Of a stretch of DNA of 64,000 nucleotides, positions 1,297 to 29,620 are shown piece after piece (the first letter of the stretch is position 1; the number at the start of each line of letters is the position of its first letter). The position numbers and the translations under genes are program-made. Origin of the DNA: a bacterium (lineage in GTDB: Bacteria; Myxococcota; UBA727; JAUIJE01); assembly GCA_030431455.1 (NCBI GenBank), contig JAUIJE010000001.1, positions 682,001 through 746,000 of the forward strand, given 5' to 3'. The notes under the pieces are model-generated. The model saw only the letters and a program-made list of their open reading frames with translations, had not been told where the DNA came from and did no database searches.

Positions 1297-4177
1297 GGGC
1301 GGCCTCGTCGTCGAGCAAGCCCCGGATCTCGTCCAGGGTCAGGCTGCGGGGGCCGGCCCCGTCTTGGCCGAGCACGCCCTCGGCCGCGGCGCGCTTGTCC
1401 TCGCCGAGGGCGAGCATGCGCTCCTCGATGGAGTCGCGGCAGGCGAGCTTGATCACGTGCACGGTCTTGGTCTGGCCGATGCGGTGGGCGCGGTCGGTGG
1501 CCTGGTCTTCGACCGCGGGGTTCCACCAGGGGTCGTAGTGGATGACGGTGTCGGCCGCGGTGAGCGTCACCCCGGTGCCGCCGGCTTTGAGGCTGACCAC
1601 GATGACGGGGGGGCCGTCTTCGGCCTGGAACTGCGCCACGACCTCGCCGCGTTTTTTGGTGCCGCCGTGCAGCCACAGGGCGTTGTCGACCCCGATGCGC
1701 TCGAGCACCTCGTGAAGAATCTTTTGCATCTCCACGAACTGCGAAAACACGATCACCCGGCGGCCGGCGTCGATGGCCTCGGTCATCACCTCCTCGAACA
1801 GGTCGAGCTTGGCCGACGAGATCGGGTCTTTTGGCTTCTTCTTGTTGCCCTTGAACACCAGGCGCGGGTCGCAGCACACCTGCCGCAGCCGCATGAGCGC
1901 GGCGAGGATCGGGGCCCGGGCCCGGCCCTTGGTGTGCAGTGACAATGCCTTCTCGACGTCGGAGCGGACCTCGGACAGCACCTTGAGGTACAGGCCGCGT
2001 TGGTCGTCGTCCATCTCGCAACGCATGATGGTCTCGATTTTGGGGGGCAGGTCTTTGGCGACCTCCTCCTTCTTGCGCCGCAGGATCACCGGGCGGGTGC
2101 GCCGGCGCAGCTCGTCGAGGCGGGCGTGGTTCCCCTTGGCGATGGGCCGGCCGTACCGCTTCTCGAAGTTCTTGGCGGTGCCGAGCAGGCCGGGGGCCAC
2201 GATCTCGAGGATGCTCCAGAGCTCTTCGACGCGGTTTTCGATGGGGGTACCGGTCAGGGCCAGCCGCTGGTCGCAGCGGACCTGGCGGGCCGCTTTCCAC
2301 GCCTCGGTGGTGTGGTTCTTCACGTGCTGGGCTTCGTCGAGCATCAGGTACCGGAAGTCGACCTCGCCCAGGGTGCCTTCGACGTCACGGCGCAACAGGG
2401 CATAGCTGGTGACGACCACGTCGGTCTCGGGGGCGAGCTCGATGAGGCCCTTGCGATCACGGCCGTGCCACTTGAACACGTTGAGGCTGGGGATGTGCCG
2501 CTTGGCCTCGTCGACCCACACGTCGAGGACCGAGGTCGGGGCCACCACCAGGTTGGGCTTTTGCCCGTCGTCGGCCTTGGCCTTGGCCAACAGGCTCATG
2601 GCCATCAGCGTCTTCCCGAGACCCATGTCGTCGGCGAGGATGCGGCCGAGCCCGAGGTTGTGCAGCCGGCTCATCCAGGCCACCCCGTCGAGCTGGTACG
2701 GGCGCAGGGTGGCGGTGACGGTGTCGGGGATCTCGCGGTCTTTGTCGGTGGGCTCTTTGAGGAACGCCTCGATGCGCTTTTTGACGTCGGGCGGACACTG
2801 CAGCTCCACGTGACCGCCGAGGGCGGCCACGAGCAAGGCGAGCTCACCCTGGCCGATCTCGCGGGTGTCGTCGAGGTTCTTGAGTTCGAGCGCGTCCCCG
2901 ATGAGCTCGAGGCTCTTGCCCATGGCGGGGGTGAAGCCGAGCACGGTGTCTTCGTCGACGACCAGGCTGCGCCGGCCCTTGACCGCGGCGGTGACGATGT
3001 CGTCGAACTCCACCGCGAGGTTGCGGGCTTCTTCGCCGATGTCGAGGTTGACCTCGAGCAGGCCGCGCTTGTCCTTGGGGATCTTCTTCGCGTTGAGGAT
3101 GGGCACGTGCGGCAAATGCACGATGCGGGGCAGGGTGTCCTCGTCGACCTGGACGAACTCGGGCACGCCCTCTCGGGCGGAAATGCGCACCAAGATGTCG
3201 AGCGCCTTTTCGCCATTTTGGGCAAAGCCGCGGTGGTTGCCGGCCGCGAACAGGCCCATGTCGAACAGCCCCTGCCGGGCCTGCTCTTCCTGCATCGTGG
3301 GCCGGCCGAGGATCATCGCGGGGGCGTCCGGGTCGTCCGGGTGCTTGATCGCGCAGATGGGGGGCAGGGCCCCGCGCGAACTCACCTCGACCTCGTCGGT
3401 GAAACCGTGCAGGCCGATCTCGGTCACGAGGTGCACACGCAGGCCGACCCCGCTGTTGTCCTCGCCCGCGGTGAGCAGGGCGCGCAGCCAGATCTTCGGC
3501 GCGGGCTCGCTCTGCTGGGCGACCTCGACGAGGTCGGCGAGGTCGGTGCCGAGCCCGACCACGGCCTCGAACGCGGCCGCCCCCTCGTCGGTGGTCAGCC
3601 CATCGAGCACCAGCGGCTCGCTCTCGAGCAGGGCCTTGGCTTCGCCGGGGAGCAACGGGGGCGCGATCCGGTGAAGCTTGAGTTGGGCATCGAGCAGGTG
3701 CGCTTCCTGTTCGCCCAGGACCTCGGGGGTCGGGATGGGGGTGTCCTCGACGTCCACCGCTTCGAAGCGCAGGCACAACGCGCCTTCTTCGCCCTCGATG
3801 ACCCGCCCGGTGATGCGCGCCGGGCCGGGAATCACCACCAAGCCACCGCGGTCCTCGACCTCGAGGGCCACCACCGACGCAAACGCGAGCAGCCGGCCGA
3901 CCTGGGCCCGGGTCAGCGCGAACCGGCCTTTTTTGGCGTGGCTGGGCCCCGCCTCCTGCAGGATCTCGACCGCGGCGCGCTCGCGCGCCGACAGCGCATT
4001 TTGGCCGGCCAAGAACGTCCGCGCGTCGGTGATGTGATCGGAGCGCGGGCCGTCGTACAGCCGCACAAACGTCCGCTCGGCCGCGAACGCCGGTTCCTCG
4101 AGGATGATGCGCAGCCGCCGATTCGACGGGCGCAGGGCGTCGGCGAGATGAACCCAGGGCAGCGGCGCGTATTTCAC
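1286..4177 (-). CDS. SNF2/SWI2-family helicase-like ATPase
   Basis: This 963-residue protein has a full SNF2 core in its C-terminal half. Motif I is DDMGLGKT with its Lys near residue 522, the DEAQH box is near residue 614, there is a TGTPIEN motif, and motif VI is DRAHRIGQ near residue 897. The first 450 residues have no motif I recognise; many bacterial SNF2 proteins carry an N-terminal SNF2-associated region there. The family uses ATP to translocate on double-stranded DNA and remodel protein-DNA complexes. It is not a processive helicase. GTG at 4177 follows an AGGGG; a TTG at 4195 would add six residues. The lipoprotein downstream overlaps its stop by 11 bases, but nothing links the two functions. 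Confidence 0.9.
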   Translation of the reverse strand: MKYAPLPWVHLADALRPSNRRLRIILEEPAFAAERTFVRLYDGPRSDHITDARTFLAGQNALSARERAAVEILQEAGPSHAKKGRFALTRAQVGRLLAFASVVALEVEDRGGLVVIPGPARITGRVIEGEEGALCLRFEAVDVEDTPIPTPEVLGEQEAHLLDAQLKLHRIAPPLLPGEAKALLESEPLVLDGLTTDEGAAAFEAVVGLGTDLADLVEVAQQSEPAPKIWLRALLTAGEDNSGVGLRVHLVTEIGLHGFTDEVEVSSRGALPPICAIKHPDDPDAPAMILGRPTMQEEQARQGLFDMGLFAAGNHRGFAQNGEKALDILVRISAREGVPEFVQVDEDTLPRIVHLPHVPILNAKKIPKDKRGLLEVNLDIGEEARNLAVEFDDIVTAAVKGRRSLVVDEDTVLGFTPAMGKSLELIGDALELKNLDDTREIGQGELALLVAALGGHVELQCPPDVKKRIEAFLKEPTDKDREIPDTVTATLRPYQLDGVAWMSRLHNLGLGRILADDMGLGKTLMAMSLLAKAKADDGQKPNLVVAPTSVLDVWVDEAKRHIPSLNVFKWHGRDRKGLIELAPETDVVVTSYALLRRDVEGTLGEVDFRYLMLDEAQHVKNHTTEAWKAARQVRCDQRLALTGTPIENRVEELWSILEIVAPGLLGTAKNFEKRYGRPIAKGNHARLDELRRRTRPVILRRKKEEVAKDLPPKIETIMRCEMDDDQRGLYLKVLSEVRSDVEKALSLHTKGRARAPILAALMRLRQVCCDPRLVFKGNKKKPKDPISSAKLDLFEEVMTEAIDAGRRVIVFSQFVEMQKILHEVLERIGVDNALWLHGGTKKRGEVVAQFQAEDGPPVIVVSLKAGGTGVTLTAADTVIHYDPWWNPAVEDQATDRAHRIGQTKTVHVIKLACRDSIEERMLALGEDKRAAAEGVLGQDGAGPRSLTLDEIRGLLDDEAARGF

Positions 4178-24324: not shown

Positions 24325-25701
24325 GTGATGAAACACGGGATGTTCCTGTTGCTGGCCGCCCTGGCCCCGTCGATGGCGTCGGCCGCCCCCATGGTCACCT
24401 ACTGCGCGGACGGCAGCCCGCTGCTCGGGCTCGACATCCAGGACGACGACCAGTTCGTCATCGACGTCGACCGCGACCCCGCGCTCGGCACCGCGGCCCA
24501 CTTGGTGTTCACCGCGTTTGACGCGGACGATCTCGACGGCAACCTCAGCCCCAGCGAGGTCAGCATCGGCATCTACCACGACGGGGTCGAGACCTGGTTC
24601 GCGGACCAGTTTGAAGGCTTCACCGGGGACGGGGACGGCAACAACTTCACCCTCAACGGCCGGAGCTACACGTTCTCGACGCCCTTGCCCCCGGGGGCGG
24701 TGCTGCAAGGCGAAAACGTCATCGAGTTCCAGGACAACAACGATTCGCCCTTCATCATCGACCGCATCTGCTTGGCGGTGGCGGGCGCGCCGCCCACCGT
24801 GCCCGCGCCCGCGGTCGAGCGGTTCTGCTCCGAAGACGCCCGCGGGGTCAGCGCGTTCGACGGCAACTCCCCGCCGGGCACTTTCATCTGGACCGAGAAC
24901 GACAACCCGCCGCCCCTCACCGTCGACATCGATCGCACGCTCTACGACGGGGCGATCTTTGGCTTCGAGACCGTCGTGTTCGCGCAAAACGGCGCCGCCG
25001 GCAACCAACAGGTCACCTACCAGGGGGATGGCACAGACTCCTTGGTGCTCAACATCAACGTGCAAAACGTCGGGGGCGGCACCAGCGGCACGCACTACAT
25101 CGGTGTGTTTCCGGCTCAGGCCACCGACTTTGTGGGCATCGCCGACGCGCCCACCGTGACCATCGATGCGTCCTCGACCTGGGGCGCGGCCCGCCTGTGG
25201 GAGACCTGCATCGTCGTCGTCAACGGCGCGCCGCCGAACGGGCCGGACGCGGGCCTCCCCGACGCGGCGGTCGACGGGCCCGACGCCGGTGTCGACGCCG
25301 GACCGGGGTTGGACGCGGGCATCGTCGGGGATGGCGATGGCGATGGAGACGGCGATGGCGACGGGGACGGCGATGGAGACGGGGATGGCGATGGAGACGG
25401 GGATGGCGATGGTGACGGCGACGGGGATGGTGACGGAGACGGGGATGGCGATGGTGACGGCGACGGGGATGGTGACGGCGACATCGGCGACGGGGATGGC
25501 GACGGCGACATCGGCGACGGGGATGGCGACGGCGACGGCGACGGGGTGGGCGACGAAGACGACATCAAGAACGCGTTGAACGGCGGGGGCACGGTGGCCG
25601 CGGGCTGCACGGTGACGCACCCCGCGGGTGGCGCGTTCCCCGCCCTCGGCGCGCTCGCCGCGCTGGTGGTGGCGGGGGTTGTGCGGCGACGACGACGCTG
25701 A
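24325..25701 (+). CDS. Exported protein with Gly-Asp repeat and MYXO-CTERM-like tail
   Basis: 458 residues from GTG 24325 (an ATG follows at once). A signal peptide (to about A-S-A, residue 20) precedes a 290-residue region with two beta-type domains, each with conserved Cys residues. An Asp-Ala-Gly linker follows, then about 36 Gly-Asp units from residue 335 (an acidic, probably calcium-binding spacer). The tail has a single Cys, a Pro-Ala-Gly-Gly stretch, a hydrophobic helix and five Arg residues. This Cys/helix/Arg arrangement matches the MYXO-CTERM sorting signal, so the protein is probably processed and displayed on the outer surface. TACCAT lies seven bases before the start and no ribosome site is seen. 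Confidence 0.85.
25327..25543 (+). repeat. Coding hexanucleotide minisatellite (Gly-Asp)
   Basis: About 36 tandem copies of GGN GAY inside the preceding gene. Third positions vary in a patterned way: 18- and 24-base higher-order blocks recur, such as GGGGATGGCGATGGTGAC. Two units are broken by ATC. Such arrays change length by slippage or recombination in whole codon pairs, keeping frame. Confidence 0.9.
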
Positions 25702-27047: not shown

Positions 27048-28358
27048 TTAGCCCGCGGATTCGCGCGGGGCCAGGACCCGCCGGAAGCTGCGCACGGTGG
27101 GCAAGAACGCGTAGAGCAGGCACACCGACAGCAACGCCAGCGCCGCGGGCGCGGGCCCCCAGAAGCGGTAGCCGACCAAGAACAGGAGCACGAAGGGCAG
27201 GGCGAACGCGGCCCGCATCGGCTTTTCGAACAGCGCGCGCCCGAGGTGGCGGTGTTGGGTCTCGAAGCTCACCATGTGCAGACACGCCAGCCCCACCGCG
27301 AAGCCCACGAACGCTTCCTCGGTGGGGAACGCGATGAGCGCACACAGGGTGATGATGCCCCCAATGGTACTGGGAACGCCCGCGAAGTAGTTGGGGTCGG
27401 CGCCCTCTTTGTGGAGGGTGAAGAACACCAGCCGGGAAATGGTGAACACCGCGTAGAAGATGCCGAGGATGGCGCCGGTGGCCCCCTCGAGGCCGAAGTA
27501 CAGGGCGACCCCGGGGGCGATGCCGTAGTTGACCCCGTCGGCGATGTCGTCGGAGTACACCCCAAAGCGGGTGCCCCCCCAGCGGCGGGCCGCGGCCCCG
27601 TCGACCCCGTCGAGGGCGCCGCCCACGAGGAGGAACAGCAGTGACAGGTCCGGCCGGCCCCGGGCGGCGGCGAGCATGGAAAAGCCCCCGCACACGAGGT
27701 TGCCGAAGGACAGCGCGTCGGCGATGAACCGCTTCTGCAGCACCTTGAGGTGGTAGAGGGCGACGGTGGCGTTGAACAGGATGTTGACCACCAGCAGCTG
27801 CGTCACCAACCGCGGGGTGATGAGCCGGCCGCCGAGGTCTTCGGACACCAGCATCAACACGAACAGGGTGGTGACGCTGATGGTGGTGCGGATGCGGTTC
27901 TCCGTCGAGCCTTTGTCCATCAAGAACAGCACCAACAAGATGCCGTCGAGGGCGAGCTTGGCCAACAGCAGGCCGGTGGGGATGACGTCGGCGGAGAAGT
28001 ACGACACCCCGAGCAACAGGGGATAGTCACAGGCCCGGTCCCAAAACCGGCCGAACCAGCTCTCCTTGTCCTGGGCGCGGGCCACCACCCCGTCGAGGTA
28101 GTCGAACAGCCCAAACACCATGAACAGCCCGACGAGGAGCGCGGGTTTGAGCGGGCCGGGCGGCGCCGTGGCCAGCACGTACAGCAGCACGGGGGTGACG
28201 AGCAGCAGCTTGCCCGCGGACAGCACGTGGGGGTGAAGGGGCAACGCGCGCCCGATGCGCTCCTCGAGCGCTTCGACAAACGCGGGTTTGGTCACCAGGC
28301 GGCGGGTCCGGCCGGTGGGGGCGACGTCGACGGGGGGCGGTGCCGACGTCGGGTTCAC
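27048..28358 (-). CDS. Tandem CDP-alcohol phosphatidyltransferase (fused, second half PssA-like)
   Basis: 436 residues and about ten membrane helices. Two complete CDP-alcohol phosphotransferase motifs (D-x2-D-G-x2-A-R-x8-G-x3-D-x3-D) are present. The first runs D86 to D111 with perfect spacing. The second runs D250 to D274 but has seven instead of eight residues between A-R and G. The second half also has phosphatidylserine-synthase features (S-F-G-N-L-x-C-G before the motif, N-Y-G-I-A-P after it). Such enzymes condense a CDP-alcohol with a second alcohol to form phospholipid head groups. GTG at 28358 overlaps the lipoprotein hydrolase stop. Two fused active sites in one chain is unusual. 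Confidence 0.85.
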   Translation of the reverse strand: MNPTSAPPPVDVAPTGRTRRLVTKPAFVEALEERIGRALPLHPHVLSAGKLLLVTPVLLYVLATAPPGPLKPALLVGLFMVFGLFDYLDGVVARAQDKESWFGRFWDRACDYPLLLGVSYFSADVIPTGLLLAKLALDGILLVLFLMDKGSTENRIRTTISVTTLFVLMLVSEDLGGRLITPRLVTQLLVVNILFNATVALYHLKVLQKRFIADALSFGNLVCGGFSMLAAARGRPDLSLLFLLVGGALDGVDGAAARRWGGTRFGVYSDDIADGVNYGIAPGVALYFGLEGATGAILGIFYAVFTISRLVFFTLHKEGADPNYFAGVPSTIGGIITLCALIAFPTEEAFVGFAVGLACLHMVSFETQHRHLGRALFEKPMRAAFALPFVLLFLVGYRFWGPAPAALALLSVCLLYAFLPTVRSFRRVLAPRESAG

Positions 28359-29536
28359 CGCTCGTACTTGTAGTTGGCGAGGCCGGGGGCGATGTCGTCG
28401 GCCGCGCGTTGGTTCATTTGGTCGTACGTGGCGGTCGAGCCCCGCAGGTGCACGTTGAAAAAGCCCACCGTGAACTGGTTGATCAAGGGGAACGCATCGT
28501 CAGGGGCGATGTTCTCTTCGCCGCAGCCGTCGTCGAGCACTTTGGCCACGTCGATGTCCAGGGCCTCGTCGAGGGCGAGCACGTCGAGGATGCACAGGTC
28601 GCTGTAGGTGAAGTGGCCCGCGGTGGGGAGCATCAGGTACTCCTTGGGGTTGGGCATGTAGGGCCACAATGAATCAGCATGGAGCGTGGGATCCAATGTC
28701 TCGTCGAGCCCCGCGGCCTGGATCGCGGTGGGGATCTCAAAATCCTCCAGCTTCACCTCGAGGCCGAGGTTGACCGGGGTGATGCCCACCGGGGTGTGGC
28801 CCACGATGGCGTCCACCCGGGCGTCGCCCCCCGCGGTGCGAAACGCGGTGAGCGCGCCCATGGAGTGGCCCACCACCCCGATGCGCTCGAGGTCGGCGAG
28901 GCCGTACAGGAAATGGTCGGGTTCGAGCTCTTCCATCACGTCGATCATGAAAGAAACATCCAACGGTCGATCAAAAATCGAGTCCAGTGTGGTCGAGATC
29001 ACCACTTCACCCTCTTCGAGGATGTCCGGCACCGTGTCGCCCTGGTGGTCGGCGCTGATCACCACATAGCCGTGGCTGGCGAGCAGCACGGTGTGGAACG
29101 TGGACTGCATCCGGATGCCGCCTTTGCCGTGGGAAAACACCACCAGCGGAAACGGCCCGCGGTCGGGCTGGACCGCCGCGTCGCGCACCGCTTCGGTGGG
29201 CATCTCGCCGAGCACTTCGGGGGCGATGCGGTCTTGCTGGCTCTCGGGCAGCTCATCCCACAGCAAGTACGTGACCCGGGGGTCGTCCTTCACCGCCGCG
29301 GTGGCCGGGTACCAGATCTCCACCGTCAGCGTGCGGGGGCCGTCCTCGGCGGGGTTGAGCCGGGTCTCGTCGACCCAGACCTCGGTGCGCACCCCGACCT
29401 GAAAGGGCCCAAACTCGCTCGGCACCGGGGCCGCGGTCTCGCTCGCGGGCGCAAACGGAATCTCTTCGAGCTCCGGGTCCGGGCCCACGCACCCCACCAA
29501 CGCGCCCGCGCACAGCAATCCAGTCCACCACTTCAT
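28355..29536 (-). CDS. Lipoprotein alpha/beta hydrolase (PAF-acetylhydrolase-like)
   Basis: 393 residues from ATG 29536 with a GGGAGG four bases upstream. The signal peptide ends in lipobox L-V-G-C. The mature part is an alpha/beta hydrolase: an oxyanion loop in V-V-F-S-H-G-K-G-G, nucleophile Ser in G-H-S-M-G, and a likely His in A-G-H-F-T. The layout resembles plasma platelet-activating-factor acetylhydrolase-like lipases, which release short acyl chains from phospholipids. The stop overlaps the GTG of the CDP-alcohol transferase gene, so a lipid-directed operon is plausible. The exact substrate is not known. Confidence 0.85.
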   Translation of the reverse strand: MKWWTGLLCAGALVGCVGPDPELEEIPFAPASETAAPVPSEFGPFQVGVRTEVWVDETRLNPAEDGPRTLTVEIWYPATAAVKDDPRVTYLLWDELPESQQDRIAPEVLGEMPTEAVRDAAVQPDRGPFPLVVFSHGKGGIRMQSTFHTVLLASHGYVVISADHQGDTVPDILEEGEVVISTTLDSIFDRPLDVSFMIDVMEELEPDHFLYGLADLERIGVVGHSMGALTAFRTAGGDARVDAIVGHTPVGITPVNLGLEVKLEDFEIPTAIQAAGLDETLDPTLHADSLWPYMPNPKEYLMLPTAGHFTYSDLCILDVLALDEALDIDVAKVLDDGCGEENIAPDDAFPLINQFTVGFFNVHLRGSTATYDQMNQRAADDIAPGLANYKYER

Positions 29537-29620
29537 GTGTCCTCCCAGGGAATCCGCGGGCCCCTCCAGCCTCACCGCGGACGATCAGGCTGGCCGACGT
29601 CGTACAGACCGTAAAGGGGG

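Follow-up and report, generated by a model that had tools for sequence, protein, structure and literature searches.

What is a bacterial gene that carries two CDP-alcohol phosphotransferase (CDP-AP) domains in one chain, and what might each half make? The gene lies in the window, the 64,000-nucleotide stretch analysed here, where the initial annotation had proposed such a fusion and likened its second domain to phosphatidylserine (PS) synthase. We find that the gene is real and conserved, and that a fusion of two enzymes of known type accounts for most of what is seen.

Two domains in one reading frame

27048-28358, minus strand: tandem CDP-alcohol phosphotransferase, type I; 436 aa, GTG start, intact frame
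27747-28289, minus strand: N-half, PgsA/PIPS-like six-helix domain, about residues 24-204, by fold and weak NCBIfam matches
28026-28103, minus strand: N-half motif D86YLDGVVAR-x8-GRFWDRACD111, a complete DxxDGxxAR(x8)GxxxDxxxD
27072-27752, minus strand: C-half, PS-synthase-like eight-helix domain, about residues 203-429, by fold and NCBIfam
27537-27611, minus strand: C-half motif D250GVDGAAAR-x7-GVYSDDIAD274, all motif residues present, spacing x7 rather than x8
27420-27434, minus strand: R309-L-V-F312-F313, counterpart of the PS-synthase serine-binding motif RLxRF, with Arg replaced by Phe at 312
28355-28358, minus strand: GTGA, four-base overlap of the upstream stop and the tandem-gene start
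28355-29575, minus strand: alpha/beta hydrolase upstream of the tandem gene, PAF-acetylhydrolase-like, probable lipoprotein

Third-position G+C is 0.94 in each half of the tandem gene. PF01066 matches the protein twice (72.9 bits; cut-off 22), and in the genome search its gathering score was passed separately by the N-half (47.2 bits) and the C-half (40.4 bits), in agreement with the proposed fusion. The best NCBIfam matches of the C-half are archaetidylserine synthase TIGR04217 (66.3 bits, cut-off 200) and PssA TIGR00473 (50.8 bits, cut-off 107), and those of the N-half, all weak and below cut-off, are archin_ph_syn (archaetidylinositol phosphate synthase), ClsA, PIPS and pgsA, with 25.0 bits against PgsA TIGR00560, below its equivalog score of 109.1. 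The archaeal IPCT-DIPPS model NF041135 is a weak match to the protein. In a profile search of PDB sequences the sole match was the PS synthase MjPSS, which aligned with the C-half and left a gap of one residue between AR and G.

An AlphaFold2 model built from an eight-row alignment (pLDDT 75.8, pTM 0.52) was compared with 875 chains using VIA-align. In this predicted model, residues 203-429 superimpose on MjPSS (7b1k_B; Z 20.9, 3.3 Å, 201 of 202 residues) and residues 40-204 on PgsA (7drk_B; Z 15.3, 3.1 Å, 164 residues), and the CDP-AP fold is thus predicted to be present in the window protein. Fold and profile matches together bear out the earlier description of the second domain as PS-synthase-like.

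The initial annotation had also coupled the tandem gene to the hydrolase-like gene upstream. The GTGA overlap is real, and the hydrolase has a lipobox-like start, a GHSMG motif and a match to PAF acetylhydrolase PF03403 (3.5e-13), its true start likely being the ATG at 29536. Neither overlap nor neighbourhood is kept in the available flanks of the other ten type I loci, which for some loci reach only 1.5-2.2 kb on one side, and the type I flanks leave the hydrolase unsupported as part of a conserved coupled system. Elsewhere in the window, 24325-25701 on the plus strand encodes a long GDGD repeat protein whose C-terminus resembles a MYXO-CTERM sorting signal (18.2 bits, cut-off 20).

Distribution and origin of the tandem proteins

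The window protein and its nearest relatives are here called type I. Among 195 genomes of the window's phylum, probably Myxococcota, full-length relatives occur in three, the host included (L007, L008 and L009; 51-52%), and a fourth genome, G186, has a C-half only (L010), with an HTH gene just upstream. A genome_contigs scan gave seven tandem loci at 47-55% best-segment identity, in two Deltaproteobacteria MAGs, a Desulfobacterales MAG, a Myxococcota MAG, Pleionea sp. CnH1-48, an Acidiferrobacterales record and a Lentisphaerae MAG; one of the seven is the same G197 gene as in the 247-genome sample below. In the order of Pleionea, a type I gene was present in one of 295 genomes, that of Pleionea itself (L041), and no plasmid copy of the tandem gene was matched in 72,556 records. 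The host genome (7.7 Mb, 28 contigs) has six PF01066 matches, namely the two tandem halves and four further genes: L001 on C4, for which pgsA is the best match (82.6 bits, under the 109.1 cut-off), L002 on C18, which passes the pssA cut-off (131.7 bits), L004 on C7 and L006 on C2. Further PF01066 matches were found in each of ten searched genomes with type I relatives, and, as judged from gene content, type I comes on top of the other CDP-AP genes of its hosts. Of the four further genes in the window's genome, L004 (G000:C7) is of the DNSDG/LDHFFD type and lies directly downstream of a 2-aminoethylphosphonate aminotransferase gene (TIGR03301, above cut-off), a setting that suggests phosphonolipid synthesis in the window organism.

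In two of the type I genomes the tandem ORF is not the only one: the Lentisphaerae genome G201 also has L057, and the Desulfobacterales genome G197 also has L053. With L057 as query, full-length matches were found in 12 of 240 genomes of the G201 phylum, G201 included (type II). With the window protein as query, 247 genomes of the G197 phylum gave 14 loci (frames of 355-510 aa) beside the G197 type I gene, 13 of them with both motifs (type III), which puts tandem proteins in 14 of these 247 genomes. We count 35 tandem proteins, 10 of type I (including L043, in which the N-half motif is destroyed), 12 of type II and 13 of type III, with L100 and L079 being second handles for the L039 and L041 genes. 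The 37 ORFs examined for motifs also include L109, with one motif only, and L053 (x8, LDSSID; long branch). No constant neighbours were found for types II and III, and two-component-like genes, their identities read from sequence, recur in 4-5 of 22 loci.

The earlier statement that natural family members have one motif does not survive the finding of 35 tandem proteins in several phyla. The second motif is indeed one residue short between A-R and G, but this does not mark an inactive domain: x7 spacing was found in 35 of 35 tandem C-halves of the clade and in L001, the PgsA-like gene of the window's own genome, and is thus compatible with what is probably a housekeeping PgsA. A lesion is ruled out by the constancy of x7 in the clade and its presence in L001. 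LDP at the third aspartate is a PgsA signature. In all 12 type II and 13 type III proteins the N-half has x8 spacing with DP at the third aspartate, and the C-half has x7 with DD(I/V/L)AD. AE, AQ or AL replaces the motif AR in type III C-halves (L101-L114), and six such genomes show no other CDP-AP. The type I N-half motif is intact in eight of ten didomains, with R changed to L in L039 and the motif destroyed in L043, and the C-half catalytic residues are invariant across the eight aligned type I rows. Mean pairwise identity in that alignment, with the near-identical pair L037/L038 left out of the means, is 62% for the C-half versus 44% for the N-half (61% versus 49% without L043). The type I N-half thus appears less constrained than the C-half, a difference also reflected in its destroyed motif in L043, its lost arginine in L039 and its absence beside L010.

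In a tree of 128 domain rows, the N-halves fall with PgsA-like rows and the C-halves with PssA-like rows (support 100 each), and the type I-III N-halves group at 88 and their C-halves at 85. A careful N-half tree places 34 N-halves (that of L043 left out) on one side of a branch and 25 standalone PgsA-like rows on the other (96/94), and a quick C-half tree separates 35 C-halves and the free L010 from 25 PssA-like rows (99); L053 was left out of both trees and of the clade counts, and for both trees the program warned that long branches meet. Distances among the N-halves and among the C-halves of the 35 proteins agree (Mantel r 0.902, 0 of 2000 permutations). The clade was delimited by a PgsA-like N-half joined to an x7/DDxAD C-half, each half grouping with its kind, and the window protein has this composition. 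Internal duplication is ruled out by the position of the N- and C-halves on opposite sides of the CDP-AP tree. On these alignments and trees, the 35 collinear proteins across several phyla are best explained by one putative ancient fusion.

The free C-half L010 is sister to L009 (support 98), so the lone C-half in G186 reflects secondary loss of an N-half. It is the one separate relative that was found, and no close relatives with the two halves as separate genes of known activity emerged from the searches. That two neighbouring genes were joined by an assembly or frame error, the artefact that the initial annotation had allowed for, is vanishingly improbable: nine contigs from other genomes encode full-length relatives with about 45-55% identity to the window protein, and the 35 tandem ORFs come from independent assemblies, including single-contig G578 and Pleionea sp. 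CnH1-48. L053 falls outside the type I-III clades in the 128-row tree and may be a separate, independent fusion. At L121 1343-9567 (G197:C5), this divergent tandem gene immediately follows genes for polyunsaturated fatty acid synthases of the PfaD and PfaA types.

Probable activities of the fused halves

An indication of function comes from genomes in which the two tandem halves are the only PF01066 matches. This was the case in 16 of 25 type II/III genomes (10 of 12 type II and 6 of 13 type III; G934, which carries L109, is excluded from the 25), a count to be read with the incompleteness of MAGs and the possible escape of divergent CDP-APs from PF01066. One of the type II genomes, G578, is a single contig of 5,729,305 bases, and its tandem protein L084 passes the pssA equivalog cut-off (107.8 versus 107) with a pgsA score of 61.7. 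Among 48 other genomes of the type II phylum sample, used as a control, PF01066 matches numbered two in 32, three in 11, four in one, five in two, six in one and one in one, and in none of the 48 did two matches share a frame.

PS decarboxylase was detected in 34 of 35 genomes examined and in 15 of the 16 sole-CDP-AP genomes, the exception being G727. PLDc_2 was absent from five of the 16 (G727, G662, G674, G885 and G857), four of which carry PS decarboxylase. From eight of the other eleven genomes, ten PLD proteins were classified, excluding L194, L195, L199, L204, L213 and the long frames of G578. Seven two-HKD proteins in five genomes have cardiolipin synthase as their best-scoring model, with six passing the TIGR04265 cut-off and L205 falling below it; for PLD-type PssA they score no more than 38.5 bits (cut-off 314). 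The remaining three proteins matched no PssA model at 1e-5. Retention of PS decarboxylase where no other PS synthase was detected points to the C-half as PS synthase, and the cardiolipin synthases of several sole-CDP-AP genomes imply PG and so point to the N-half. Gene content thus suggests that types II and III are probably bifunctional PGP and PS synthases.

According to PMC8633023, the acceptor serine of MjPSS is bound by D62, S63, D66 and F105, and R101 holds a nearby chloride. These residues (in the order D62, S63, D66, F105 and R101) align with D270, D271, D274, F313 and R309 of the window protein. At the S63 position all 36 clade rows have Asp, those of the types presumed to make PS among them, and this residue is thus no argument against serine. 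The second Arg of RLxRF does differ: all 11 type I C-halves carry Phe or Tyr there, and all 25 type II/III proteins carry Arg. When the matching Arg of fungal Cho1 was mutated (R189A), the apparent Km for serine rose from 8.43 to 28.94 mM (PMC8727905). Replacement of a serine-binding Arg in every type I C-half suggests that the acceptor may have changed, and in this respect the earlier suggestion of a changed substrate may hold, although spacing is no marker of it. Loss of the Arg alone is no proof of a new acceptor, since 18 of 26 standalone PssA-like rows have Arg there, two have Lys and six have Thr or Leu (RLATYN/RLALYN). With moderate confidence, we infer from these patterns that the type I protein probably works as a transferase and that its acceptor has probably changed.

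We consider the following overall account fairly probable. A PgsA-type N-half and a PssA-type C-half would have been joined anciently in one membrane protein. In types II and III, the N-half would most likely be a PGP synthase and the C-half a PS synthase, the two routes competing for CDP-diacylglycerol. Type I would be an accessory copy beside the PgsA-like and PssA-like genes of its hosts, and its C-half most likely a catalytically active, two-metal head-group transferase that depends on CDP-DAG and has moved away from serine as acceptor; the N-half of the window protein would keep its catalytic motif under weaker constraint. The activities and substrates of the tandem proteins are all read from sequence, predicted structure and gene content. 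Points that weigh against this account are the motif arginine missing from type III C-halves, the score of the type I C-half far under the PssA cut-off, and the meeting of long branches in both half-trees. A bolder form of this account, in which the fused enzyme is the sole CDP-DAG head-group transferase (PGP and PS) of whole lineages and type I has been neofunctionalised to a non-serine head group, yielding a phospholipid new for these bacteria, is tentative and somewhat doubtful.

Type I might instead be a second PS synthase that still uses serine, with a structural or regulatory N-half standing in for the second protomer of a CDP-AP dimer. MjPSS is a dimer, as are its relatives of solved structure (PMC8633023), and four of the MjPSS residues above (D62, D66, F105 and the chloride-binding R101) are conserved in the window protein. 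Such a role would also agree with the persistence of the C-half where the N-half motif is destroyed (L043) or the N-half is absent (L010), and with the presence of the DDxAD variant in types II and III, which probably make PS. However, a scaffold would not need the metal-site motif that most type I N-halves keep, the serine-binding Arg is lost throughout the type I C-halves, and the host already has a PssA above the equivalog cut-off. We regard this reading as unlikely. A role for type I in a lipid remodelling set with a C92 enzyme, an APP1 phosphatase or the lipoprotein hydrolase, for example as a CDP-alcohol:diacylglycerol transferase, is less likely again. It draws on the L042 locus, where a 519-aa Peptidase_C92 gene precedes the tandem gene and an APP1 phosphatidate phosphatase gene follows it, on L040 2263-5397, where two CDP-AP domains and a C-terminal Peptidase_C92 (YiiX-like) domain form one 1044-aa protein, and on L039, where the opposite strand carries a related C92 gene about 0.9 kb downstream of the tandem gene; in the host, a 518-aa C92 relative is encoded on a different contig (36% identity over its full length). 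In the available flanks, however, the C92 link is limited to three of 11 type I loci and APP1 to one of 11, and the C92 neighbourhood is best taken as a lead to lipid remodelling. At L039 there is also a further CDP-AP gene (2350-3036, 228 aa), which lies some 1.5 kb upstream of the tandem gene and is separated from it by a formyltransferase-like gene.

Implications and comparison with known enzymes

The ratio of anionic to zwitterionic phospholipids is set at a branch point occupied by PgsA and PssA. A fusion of the two, as preferred here, would fix their stoichiometry and place two competing active sites side by side; we know of no characterised CDP-AP that does so in one chain. Searches of an open-access library listed no paper that describes tandem CDP-AP proteins, and passages of PMC11150832 concern other enzymes. 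Genomes with the tandem protein as the sole CDP-AP found make bifunctionality directly testable by complementation, and the type I offshoot would serve as a natural experiment on a possible change of acceptor in a PS synthase.

CDP-APs fused to other domains, such as archaeal IPCT-DIPPS and AF2299, resemble the window protein in having a CDP-AP within a longer chain, but their partner is a cytoplasmic cytidylyltransferase-like domain rather than a second CDP-AP. Fusions with other domains are mentioned in PMC8633023. PgsA (PDB 7drk/7drj) shares its fold and CDP-AP motif with the N-half, although PgsA-like rows mostly have LDP or alike at the third aspartate, whereas the window N-half has FDR. 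MjPSS of Methanocaldococcus jannaschii (PDB 7b1k and 7pow; PMC8633023) resembles the C-half in fold, in the four metal-binding aspartates, in the motif arginine and in the counterparts of F105 and R101. Unlike the window protein, it is a single-domain enzyme with x8 spacing, and it has DS rather than DD after the third aspartate and RLARF where the window C-half has RLVFF.
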